From the IMG/VR virus record IMGVR_UViG_3300034073_001392, positions 1 through 26,463 of that record: a stretch of 26,463 nt of DNA; one strand, written 5' to 3'. Position 1 is the first letter of the stretch. The number at the start of each line of letters is the position of its first letter. Made by a program: the position numbers and the translations under genes. The notes beneath the pieces are model-generated. The model made no database searches, had not been told where the DNA came from, and worked only from the letters and a program-made list of their open reading frames with translations. This DNA is from a virus. Positions 10,274-13,374 of the stretch are shown one piece after another.

Positions 10274-10525
10274 ATGTTGGTTCTCTCCGAAACCGGCACT
10301 CCCTTTACCGAGGCTCAGCTCGATGCGGCCTTCAAAAAGGTTGCTGATCCCGCCGACTGGCGCAACCCCATCAACTACGAGGTGGTTGATCGTGACGAAG
10401 TGCACGTCACTGTCTGCGCGATTCAGTACTACACCGCAGCGCCGGTGCAAGTGAAGGATCTGCAGTGGAACGATGAGTTCATGATTTTCTCTCCCGGTTA
10501 CCGTCTTGGTCCTGCCGGTTGCTGA
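10274..10525 (+). CDS. Hypothetical protein, 83 aa, first gene of accessory cassette
   Basis: ATG at 10274, begins MLVLSETGTPFTEAQLDAAF, then VADPADWRNPINYEVV and a beta-rich end rich in aromatic residues (AIQYYTAAPVQVKDLQWNDE). Not recognised. It is a self-contained unit: its own promoter P3 with the palindromic element and an intrinsic terminator 5 nt after the stop. This is the layout of a moron-like gene expressed independently of the late operon. Confidence 0.72.
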   Translation: MLVLSETGTPFTEAQLDAAFKKVADPADWRNPINYEVVDRDEVHVTVCAIQYYTAAPVQVKDLQWNDEFMIFSPGYRLGPAGC

Positions 10526-10530
10526 TCACC

Positions 10531-10553
10531 GGCCCCTTCGGGGGCCTTTTCTT
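10531..10553 (+). terminator. Intrinsic terminator after the 83-aa gene
   Basis: GGCCCC-TTCG-GGGGCC followed by TTTTCTT. It has a strong UUCG tetraloop stem and is the near-twin of 6066-6088. The next ATG (10554) is the base right after the T-tract. Confidence 0.9.
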
Positions 10554-10892
10554 ATGACACAACAACATCCCATTATTCCGCCGTCAGAAGAACTGGTGGC
10601 ATCAATGATCGAGCAAGCGTTTGGTCCGCTTGGTCCTGCTGGGCTTAGCGACAAAAATAAGCTGACTGCTGCTTTCGCCGATCTTTCTACCCGCGCTGCC
10701 CAATGGGGCGCAGACCAAGAGCTGGAGGCGTGCTGTAAAGCACTTGAAAGTTGGAATCCACGTATTCCGCCTAATCTCCGCGCCGCCCGCCGCCCGCCGC
10801 CCCAAGCCGCCGAGCTTGAAGGAAAAACTGACAGAGGCGCTTTACAACGAAGACATTGGCACAGCTCTCAGACTGGTGAGGCAGCTCGATGA
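10554..10892 (+). pseudogene. Accessory protein frameshifted by a GCCGCCC repeat
   Basis: The ATG at 10554 (MTQQHPIIPPSEELVASMIE) is preferred over an in-frame upstream start within the previous gene. Residues about 45-82 (LSTRAAQWGADQELEACCKA, then PPNLRAARRP) are paralogous to the protein at 11279-11839. At 10782-10802 there are three GCCGCCC units where the paralogue has two. The extra 7 nt shifts the frame, giving a C-terminus unlike the paralogue and a stop at 10890-10892. Removing one unit restores PKPPSLKEKLTEALYNEDIG and a TAA at 10894-10896. It may be phase variable, degenerate or mis-assembled. Confidence 0.7.
10782..10802. repeat. Heptanucleotide tandem repeat (GCCGCCC)x3
   Basis: Three perfect units inside a coding region. 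The paralogous gene carries two units at 11705-11718. Unit length is not a multiple of three, so copy-number change switches the downstream frame. Confidence 0.95.
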
Positions 10893-10963
10893 CTAAATTA
10901 GAAATCGGTCTGCTCGTTGCTGGCGCTTTTCTTTGTAGAGTTTTTATTGGGAGCTTGAGATGA
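10889..10963 (+). CDS. 24-aa membrane peptide
   Basis: ATG at 10889 with GAGG 7 nt upstream, stop TGA at 10961-10963. Sequence starts MTKLEIGLLVAGAFLCRVFI and is one hydrophobic segment. It overlaps the preceding stop (ATGA) and the following start (ATGA), a double coupling that argues for real translation. It could be a membrane-active micropeptide or only a coupling cistron for the gene at 10960. Confidence 0.5.
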   Translation: MTKLEIGLLVAGAFLCRVFIGSLR

Positions 10964-11259
10964 CTGAACACAACCTCTCCGACAAAGACGATGCTCCTTG
11001 GCTTGACTGTATGGATGGGTTCAGAACAGCGTCTAACTACACCAACCCCAATAGGCCAAGTGCAAACAGCGATTTAGTTGAGCGCGTGCGCTGGGTTATC
11101 GGCAGTGCCGAAGTTGTGGATGTAAACACTCCTGACTGGACAGAGGAAGACGTGGCCGCAATTCAGGAAGTGGCAGCGTGGCTCAATGATCACCAGTACT
11201 GGGAAAACGCTGCAGCAGTACTGTACGCCGAACTAGACGACTTCCACAAAGCCCAGTAA
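10960..11259 (+). CDS. Hypothetical acidic protein, 99 aa
   Basis: ATG at 10960 with GGGAG 7 nt upstream. N-terminus polar (MTEHNLSDKDDAPWLDCMDG), then a helical C-terminal region (DLVERVRWVIGSAEVVDVNT and AAIQEVAAWLNDHQYWENAA). No recognised family. Its stop lies in the first copy of the recurring cassette spacer CAGTA(A/G)(C/T)C(A/G)C(C/T)TTC. Confidence 0.65.
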   Translation: MTEHNLSDKDDAPWLDCMDGFRTASNYTNPNRPSANSDLVERVRWVIGSAEVVDVNTPDWTEEDVAAIQEVAAWLNDHQYWENAAAVLYAELDDFHKAQ

Positions 11260-11278
11260 CCGCTTCCATTAATCACCC

Positions 11279-11839
11279 ATGACAAACGAAGACTATTCCA
11301 AGGTGCCGCCGCCGCACCTGCTCAAAAAGTTCTCCGAGCAAGCACGAGAGGACAGTCAAAAGCGCAGTCATCCCGGCTACTGCAAGACTTTTGCCAAGCT
11401 CTGCATCAACTGGGCATTTCAAGAGGCAGCGATGGACGACCTTCGCGTTGCCAGTGCTGAAGTAAGTGGGGCGGCGTCACAGCCCGGATCATCGTCCGAG
11501 ATCGAACGCCGCAGTGACATTGTAGTGTCGCCGGAACTGATAGAGCAGTGGCGCAATGAGTGGATTTATAAAGTACCGCATGGCGTTGATGAACTCGATT
11601 TTCTCGCCCAGCGTGGTGCCCAATGGGGCGCAGATCAGGAGCTGGAGGCGTGTTGTGAGTGGGTCAAAAGCAAGCAGACCTATTGGGCACACGACGAACT
11701 CCGCGCCGCCCGCCGCCCCAAGCCGCCGAGCTTGAAGGAGCAGGCGCTTGAAGCTTTGGATGAAGAGCAGGCTGAGTTAAGCATCCAAAACTACAAGCTC
11801 ATACGCTCTGTACTTGAATCCTTGCCCAATCACGAGTAG
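11279..11839 (+). CDS. Accessory protein with AQWGADQELEACC module, 186 aa
   Basis: ATG at 11279. The N-terminal about 70 residues are helical and unrelated to the shorter paralogue (KVPPPHLLKKFSEQAREDSQ). The middle carries the module LAQRGAQWGADQELEACCEW and DELRAARRPKPPSLKEQALE, shared with 10554-10892, followed by an acidic helical C-terminus. I recall this module as recurring in small phage proteins of picocyanobacterial phages, with no function assigned. The GCCGCCC unit is present twice, keeping the frame open. Confidence 0.7.
   Translation: MTNEDYSKVPPPHLLKKFSEQAREDSQKRSHPGYCKTFAKLCINWAFQEAAMDDLRVASAEVSGAASQPGSSSEIERRSDIVVSPELIEQWRNEWIYKVPHGVDELDFLAQRGAQWGADQELEACCEWVKSKQTYWAHDELRAARRPKPPSLKEQALEALDEEQAELSIQNYKLIRSVLESLPNHE
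11705..11718. repeat. Heptanucleotide tandem repeat (GCCGCCC)x2
   Basis: Two units in the in-frame paralogue, at the position homologous to the three units at 10782-10802. Confidence 0.9.
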
Positions 11840-11853
11840 TCGCTTCCACTTCT

Positions 11854-12099
11854 ATGTCTGAATTTTCACCCGCTGCGCGTTCAGTGTTTGACGCCTACAT
11901 CAGCCACTGGACAGCAGATCCATACGAAATCAGTCCAGAAGCATTGGCCGCCGCGCTGCGATCTGCTGCGGATCAGGTTGCGCCGGAGCCAGACGACATC
12001 GACAAGGGATCGCTGTCACTTGCCGCCATCCGTAATCGATGCAAAGTGCGCGACGAACTCCTCGCCATCGCCGCCGAGCTGGAGGGCAGGGATGGCTGA
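11854..12099 (+). CDS. Small helical protein, tandem paralogue A, 81 aa
   Basis: ATG at 11854 begins MSEFSPAARSVFDAYISHWT. The pattern SPAARSVFDA ... EALAAALRSAADQVAPEP ... RDELLAIAAELEG is repeated in the next gene, so the two arose by duplication. It is all helical, with no membrane span or cysteine motif. The end overlaps the next start. Function is unknown. Confidence 0.68.
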   Translation: MSEFSPAARSVFDAYISHWTADPYEISPEALAAALRSAADQVAPEPDDIDKGSLSLAAIRNRCKVRDELLAIAAELEGRDG

Positions 12100-12319
12100 G
12101 TTGTCACCACAGGCTCAGGCGGTGCTGGATGCCGCCTATCAGCGAATGGACGAAAACCCGCACAACGAGGTAGAAGCAACGCTCGCGGCCGCCCTGCGAG
12201 CTGCTGCGGATCAGGTGGTGCCAGCCCCACATCTTCCGTATGATTCTTGCTGTGATGTAAACGCAGCAGCAATACGCGCCGAACTTTTGGCCATTGCCGT
12301 TGAGCTTGAAGCCCAGTAG
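12092..12319 (+). CDS. Small helical protein, tandem paralogue B, 75 aa
   Basis: I start at the ATG 12092 (MAELSPQAQAVLDAAYQRMD) because it aligns with the start of the preceding paralogue and overlaps its stop by 8 nt; the same frame is open further upstream but is then shadow. It shares SPQAQAVLDA, ATLAAALRAAADQVVPAP and AELLAIAVELEA with paralogue A. The stop is followed by the cassette spacer CAGTAGTCACCTTC. Confidence 0.7.
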   Translation: MAELSPQAQAVLDAAYQRMDENPHNEVEATLAAALRAAADQVVPAPHLPYDSCCDVNAAAIRAELLAIAVELEAQ

Positions 12320-12334
12320 TCACCTTCAACGCCC

Positions 12335-12727: not shown

Positions 12728-12839
12728 ACTAGGCTACGTAGCGATAGAGCCCAAGCCCCTGTGCGTCCTTGAGGCGTCTCACGCTTGGGCCATCAAACCC
12801 TTCTCTGTTCTGCCTTGGCATCGGGTTGTCCTTTTCCTT

Positions 12840-13256
12840 ATGTCCGCACCCCTCTGGCGCGATCTTGAAGCCGCCTTTGATTCCGTTCAAGACAACGGCT
12901 CATACGACTTCAACGAAGCCTTCACCGTTTGCACCAACGTATTGGCAAAGGGCCTCGGAACGCCAATACTGGCCATGTATTGGCCGAACTGGCAATGCCT
13001 GCCCATGACGCGCACCCCTCTCGCCACCAACCGCATCCACGAAAGCCTCGACGCGGCTCTCGCACGCAAGCGCGTGGTGCTCTGGTACGACGCCAATGGC
13101 GAGTGGGAGACCGAGTTCGAGAGCTATGAGCCTTCCAACGCGGAAAAGCCATGCTCACCACCCTCCAGCAATGGCTTTACGACGAAGGCTTTGACGAAGC
13201 AGGCGATGCCCTTGACGATGAAATCAACCGCGCTGATCAATCCGAATAAACTTTGA
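12840..13256 (+). CDS. Chimeric ORF containing a PglZ-N-terminus-like segment
   Basis: The frame is open from a TTG at 12681 (through the 12-bp repeats, as LLGD/LLGN/LLGE); I start at ATG 12840 (MSAPLWRDLEAAFDSVQDNG). Residues from the internal ATG at 13005 read MTRTPLATNRIHESLDAALA then KRVVLWYDANGEWETEFESY, strongly like the first about 45 residues of BREX-system PglZ proteins, after which similarity stops. The C-terminal about 40 residues (from about 13140) are shadow of the small gene at 13151. It is probably a recombination-made fragment; any function is uncertain. Confidence 0.45.
   Translation: MSAPLWRDLEAAFDSVQDNGSYDFNEAFTVCTNVLAKGLGTPILAMYWPNWQCLPMTRTPLATNRIHESLDAALARKRVVLWYDANGEWETEFESYEPSNAEKPCSPPSSNGFTTKALTKQAMPLTMKSTALINPNKL
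13151..13249 (+). CDS. 32-aa acidic peptide
   Basis: ATG at 13151, TAA at 13247-13249; begins MLTTLQQWLYDEGFDEAGDA and ends INRADQSE. It is acidic and helical with natural composition, in a frame different from the chimeric ORF that overlaps it. It could be the tail end of a truncated gene or a real small gene. It is the last frame before the portal. Confidence 0.42.
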   Translation: MLTTLQQWLYDEGFDEAGDALDDEINRADQSE

Positions 13257-13374
13257 TCCTGCTGGGTCGGTTCAAACCGTAAGGCTGAACGCCGTGTGTG
13301 GCGGTATCGGAGGCCCAGCCATCATTCCCGATTAACCTAGAGCCATAGACTTTGTGCATGGCTAGGCGCAAAAA

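Follow-up and report, generated by a model that had tools for sequence, protein, structure and literature searches.

A fragment of a picocyanobacterial type I BREX locus within a small gene ahead of the portal gene of a viral contig

An interrupted gene ahead of the portal gene

The window, which is the whole stretch of DNA analysed here, is a virus record of 26,463 bp from IMG/VR that clearly encodes terminase, portal, head morphogenesis and major head proteins. The nearest named phages were the Synechococcus phages KBS-S-2A, S-H1 and S-CBS2, which were alike over small parts only. The phage also has genes for a Sak-type single-strand annealing protein (PF06378, 1.2e-5), a PD-(D/E)XK exonuclease and a RusA resolvase. 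The list of open reading frames contained a fusion frame of 138 codons on the plus strand (12840..13256), made up of a phage N-terminus, insert read-through, residues 1–48 of PglZ and a frameshifted tail.

The frame opens with the 5′ part of a 62-codon phage gene (12840..12920, plus strand, 27 codons), which reads MSAPLWRDLEAAFDSVQDNGSYDFNEA and then breaks, with 91–97% nucleotide identity to the empty-site gene of close relatives. A host-derived insert of 226 bp follows (12921..13146) in place of 5 bp (GCCTC); here the flanking homology to about 40 phages breaks, and the interior matches picocyanobacterial BREX loci. The displaced 3′ part of the phage gene (13147..13249, plus strand) encodes MLTTLQQWLYDEGFDEAGDALDDEINRADQSE, the same peptide that is found in frame with the 5′ part in relatives L012–L054. 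The phage gene is put out of frame by a net change of +221, and the MLTTLQQWLYDEGFDEAGDALDDEINRADQSE part remains open from its own ATG at 13151.

A protein search using the residues coded by 12840–13004 gave 45 phage loci, in which the 62-codon gene was intact except in L055 and L056, where it was cut by the contig end. The consensus of this empty-site gene was MSAPLWRDLEAAFDSVQDNGSYDFNEA-ASA-MLTTLQQWLYDEGFDEAGDALDDEINRADQSE, and in many relatives it was followed by a readable portal gene start. The intact 62-codon gene ahead of the portal gene, and with it the empty site, was carried by about 40 IMG/VR relatives. Wherever both sides align, the nucleotide homology of the relatives to the window breaks at 12918–12920 and returns at 13147/13148, the relatives reading GAAGCC-GCCTC-AGCCATG and the window GAAGCC-[226 bp]-AGCCATG. 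The initial annotation had placed the piece in a phage accessory cassette; it in fact lies within this conserved 62-codon gene immediately before the portal gene.

At the junctions, donor and recipient share little or no homology. Alignment of the window, empty-site and host sequences gave microhomologies of 3 nt, GCC being common to the insert and its left flank and AGC to the insert and its right flank, a length that is often expected by chance. There was no target-site duplication; AGCC flanks the insert, but both copies are already present in the empty site AGCCGCCTCAGCC. No terminal inverted repeats were seen by eye. A transposed element such as an IS or a MITE is rejected on the absence of a target-site duplication.

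Upstream of the interrupted gene (12741–12794) there is a hairpin, GATAGAGCYCAAGCCCCTGT-(inner stem-loop)-TCACGCTTGRGCCATC, common to the phage relatives L019 and L034, phage S-CBS2 and two picocyanobacterial genomes (81%). The stems carry changes on either side that look compensatory, and the folding beats most shuffles (z −2.3). The hairpin matched no Rfam family, and Rfam and tRNA scans gave no result. In the stretch that separates the small gene from the portal gene (13250–13370, GGGTCGGTTC...GCTGAACGCCGTGTGTGGCGGTATCGGAGGCCC) the sequence is well conserved in relatives but the reading frame is not, and this stretch is possibly a structured leader.

The insert and the picocyanobacterial BREX locus

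From the ATG at 13005 the frame reads MTRTPLATNRIHESLDAALARKRVVLWYDANGEWETEFESYEPSNAEK, after which the likeness to PglZ ends. By profile and nucleotide homology, 13005..13148 (plus strand) comprises codons 1–48 of pglZ from a picocyanobacterial type I BREX system. The pglZ start codon is retained intact, in the same frame as the phage gene; the best amino acid identity was 79%. In a PADLOC profile search two PglZ models came top, PDLC02547 with E 6.8e-5 (profile positions 3–42 of 855) and another with E 3.4e-4 (from position 9). NCBIfam TIGR02687 (BREX-1 system phosphatase PglZ type A) was matched with E 9.6e-4 at positions 2–40 of 844, and the matches from both collections fall at the correct, N-terminal end of the family. 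Searches of Pfam and PHROGs gave no match, as expected because the fragment falls outside PF08665. This catalytic domain occupies residues 448–630 of the host PglZ and is absent from the fragment, since the frame departs from pglZ after codon 48. The window frame carries N-terminal sequence of the family and not a PglZ of about 850 residues; a complete phage-borne pglZ is rejected. No other brx or pgl genes were found beside the fragment, the searched neighbours being terminase, portal, head and small unknown genes.

A scan of 84,980 prokaryote species revealed ten loci in which the same stretch starts pglZ, all of them cyanobacterial. The pglZ starts of the Cyanobium/Synechococcus type had 64–79% identity to the fragment over 41–48 residues, with 79% over residues 1–48. 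The GC content of 13005–13140 was 64%, compared to 54–56% in the flanks. The initial annotation had read the internal ATG at 13005 as the N-terminus of PglZ in a piece richer in GC than its surroundings, and both statements agree with these profiles, pglZ starts and values; the protein search against PglZ families that it proposed matched PglZ profiles at their first ~40 positions. Its bounds of 13005–13140 were too narrow, the foreign piece actually spanning 12921–13146. Another frame does take over, as it had described; the change comes after residue 48, and that frame is the displaced 3′ half of the phage gene.

Nucleotide homology to host loci was gap-free at 82% identity between window 12939–13132 and L006, and reached 83% between 12939–13121 and L005. 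Among 400 genomes of the family G032 came closest, with 86% identity over 184 bases. The G032 locus (L089) has the order pglX, two dynamin-like proteins, an AAA ATPase gene on the minus strand, pglZ on the plus strand and brxL, and this order identifies the donor type as a type I BREX locus. PADLOC assigned the dynamin-like proteins to LeoBC/LeoA and the pglZ to PDLC02547 (9e-218). The search of picocyanobacterial genomes for the donor, proposed in the initial annotation, gave the type of donor locus but not the donor strain, which was not found in the 400 genomes. Since the best match reaches 86%, the donor would be an unsampled species of the same group; in a tree the window was placed among the hosts, weakly supported and without a close donor.

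The two dynamin-like proteins (LeoBC and LeoA, L089 5401–9466) lie between pglX and pglZ of this picocyanobacterial type I BREX locus, and a survey of BREX diversity contained no mention of dynamin-like or cyanobacterial BREX. The product of the host AAA ATPase gene (AAA_16; L089 9529–10812 and L005 1119–2399) gave a weak BrxC/BrxD match, and its C-terminal end appears winged-helix-like by eye.

In the hosts pglZ diverges from the AAA ATPase gene, and the GTATTGGC/GCCAATAC repeats that lie between them are near-invariant across 11 host loci. The corresponding intergenic region of the insert (12937..13004), operator- or promoter-like with its repeated GTATTGGC and GCCAATAC motifs, has 77–87% identity to these 11 loci, nearly all of the matches being immediately upstream of the ATPase gene. 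In most aligned loci the other side of the element is not a nearby pglZ start, and because that side varies the element belongs with the ATPase gene. The window contains the whole element, with all four of the TTGGC-type motif positions and one changed base in the last. The sole sigma-70-like promoter match in the region (12942–12970; one found against 0.2 expected by shuffling) points toward the 3′ half-gene and the portal gene. The host ATPase and the TTGGC-type element may represent a BREX-associated regulator, not yet described, and its operator. The captured non-coding part could be neutral, a promoter donor or a binder of a host regulator.

The first 16 bases of the insert (12921..12936), TTCACCGTTTGCACCA, were assigned by host-locus matching and a shuffled control to the minus strand as an antisense scrap of the Walker-A codons of the divergent AAA ATPase gene. 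In the host loci TTCACCGTTTGCACCA occurs only at the ATPase Walker-A antisense, with at most 2 mismatches and in all host loci matched; in the control, one of 200 shuffled 16-mers matched within one mismatch. The spacing from this scrap to GTATTGGC is always exactly 213 nt in the host loci and 2 nt in the window, so about 211 bp of host sequence is missing. The missing part is the 5′ end of the ATPase gene, and the window is shorter here than every host examined; its loss could have accompanied or followed capture, or the donor itself could have lacked it. With the scrap included, all 226 bp of the insert are explained by host DNA.

Origin of the insert

The donor locus type, the empty site, the boundaries, the internal deletion and the frameshift are demonstrated, and a donor locus together with a matching empty site is what capture of host DNA leaves behind. 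The best explanation is probably a scar of illegitimate recombination with host BREX DNA. A siphovirus-like phage lineage of Synechococcus/Cyanobium would have taken up a type I BREX fragment from a picocyanobacterium, consisting of the operator-like intergenic region and pglZ codons 1–48, joined to the 16-nt ATPase scrap after the loss of about 211 bp, and the 62-codon gene that precedes the portal gene would have received this fragment. We infer the manner of joining, since the donor itself was not found: it may have taken place at the 3-nt microhomologies during phage DNA replication or repair among fragments of host DNA, perhaps helped by the Sak-type annealing protein and the PD-(D/E)XK exonuclease of the phage. 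In the pglZ part, 4 of 144 bases were absent from all compared hosts and the mean pN/pS against the hosts was 0.26 (host range 0.11–0.40), with no obvious decay over 48 codons; because of this lack of decay the capture was likely recent. The piece would have no selected function, and the interrupted gene would be dispensable. A recombination scar from a host defence island had been among the readings in the initial annotation, and it gains from the donor locus, the exact empty site in about 40 phages, the short microhomologies and the disrupted gene. Against it count the intact operator-like region, the predicted promoter and the in-frame pglZ start, which are tidier than a random fragment need be, and the fact that the insert is known from one contig only.

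Neither junction had a second copy in other IMG/VR records, no close relative of the cyanobacterial PglZ fragment was found in IMG/VR, an operator scan of IMG/VR gave no result, and a 57-residue query had no match in 50,697 phage records. The viral PglZs that were found in IMG/VR were full length (827–861 residues) and more distant from the fragment. A recurrent viral gene family is rejected on the absence of a close IMG/VR relative, the full length of the distant viral PglZs and the silence of the phage records. The single contig and the missing second junction also suit an artefact, in which whole-genome amplification or library preparation joined the piece to phage DNA and the insert does not occur in living phages; three junctions with 0–3 nt of shared sequence are in the style of amplification chimeras. 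This is unlikely, as correct phage sequence on both sides of the 226-bp insert needs two chimeric joins at one place and an internal deletion in the consensus. Assembly software joins sequences through long shared words, of which the junctions have none, and a computational chimera is improbable because the phage sequence is picked up again correctly past the 226 bp and no more than 3 nt are shared at the junctions. Chance resemblance to PglZ has a negligible probability: the profile E-values are by themselves modest (1e-3 to 7e-5), but nucleotide identity of 82–86% runs across 183–194 bases of a specific BREX locus. Chance is ruled out because this homology covers the coding part and continues into about 66 nt of non-coding host DNA upstream.

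The PglZ unit crystallised with BrxB consists of residues 1–98, and the BrxB interface residues reported for the Salmonella protein are K58, E62 and D88 (PMC12205998, PMC13326643). When an STM4492-type PglZ (L093, numbered as in the paper minus one) was aligned with the cyanobacterial proteins, these residues mapped past residue 48. A modest structure model of host residues 1–100 (mean pLDDT 75.5 from 9 sequences, the other four models being much poorer) gave the elements H5-21, E24-28, H35-40, E46-50, H55-64, E70-75 and H84-91, and best matched the solved PglZ N-terminal chains 9zn5, 9zll and 9nv3. The predicted domain runs to about residue 91, and the insert ends inside its second strand; the fragment does not hold the complete N-terminal domain with its BrxB-contact residues.

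These results bear on a protein decoy, in which PglZ 1–48, alone or with 27 phage residues, would attach to BREX subunits and poison the assembly of the system. The intact start codon and frame, in frame with the phage gene, and the role of the N-terminal domain as the BrxB-binding unit would suit it, but the fragment is half a domain (H5-21, E24-28, H35-40) lacking the later helices and strands with K58, E62 and D88, which makes a decoy very improbable. By the model, a stable BrxB-binding product of the insert is unlikely. The PglZ genes of other viral contigs are full length, no other virus was found with the fragment, and the insert also contains non-coding DNA and an antisense scrap; the captured decoy suggested in the initial annotation is accordingly not upheld. 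A second proposal is that the operator-like region was the useful part, supplying a host promoter to the 3′ half-gene and the portal gene or titrating a factor of the BREX operator. The TTGGC-type motifs are all present and highly conserved in 11 host loci, the only promoter-like match of the region sits in them, and the divergent host gene encodes an AAA ATPase with the winged-helix-like end. Binding of any factor to the motifs is putative, however, a single copy per phage genome would titrate little before replication, and the insert is a singleton among many relatives; this proposal has a low probability. Much the same low likelihood is given to the retention of both operator and pglZ start to weaken host BREX, by factor binding or a truncated PglZ N-terminus, which would make a defence-locus fragment serve as counter-defence.

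Comparison with known systems, and a neighbouring cassette

Capture from a BREX locus is new as an instance and known as a kind. Mosaics between phages and the prophage remnants of their hosts are generated by Rad52-like phage recombinases (De Paepe et al., 2014, PMC3945230), and here too chromosomal DNA has entered a phage, one with a Sak-type annealing protein and an exonuclease. That mosaicism is driven by homology to prophage remnants, whereas here about 3 nt are shared at the junctions and a defence locus was the donor. Phage PhiTE-F hijacked ToxI from a toxIN plasmid, restoring a complete antitoxin RNA that gives escape (Blower et al., 2012, PMC3475682). In both phages recombination brought in part of a defence locus from the host, but in the window this part is half a domain. 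The insert encodes the first 48 residues of the PglZ N-terminal domain seen bound to BrxB (PDB 9nv3 and 9zll; PMC12205998, PMC13326643), and differs in that the interface residues are not in the captured part. The phage BREX inhibitors Ocr (PMC7261183) and OrbA (PMC11580459) are likewise phage genes facing BREX; unlike the insert they encode whole proteins that stand alone, one of them mimicking DNA and the other acting via BrxC, and are not fragments of BREX genes.

The scar would be a recent-looking record that this phage lineage came into direct contact with a picocyanobacterium carrying BREX, and such a trace therefore predicts the host group and the defence system that the phage has met. 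It shows that phages can acquire the regulatory DNA and gene starts of defence loci, raw material for possible decoys, and it is a caution that a short match to a defence gene in a viral contig may be a scar and not a counter-defence gene.

A cassette of small open reading frames (10506–12320) contains the repeated modules QWGADQELEACC, RAARRP and ALRAAADQV...RAELLAIA.ELE. Four of its proteins were searched; three had no PHROG match, and that of 11279–11836 matched phrog_32006, of unknown function. By its repeats the cassette looks like the product of tandem duplication and divergence.
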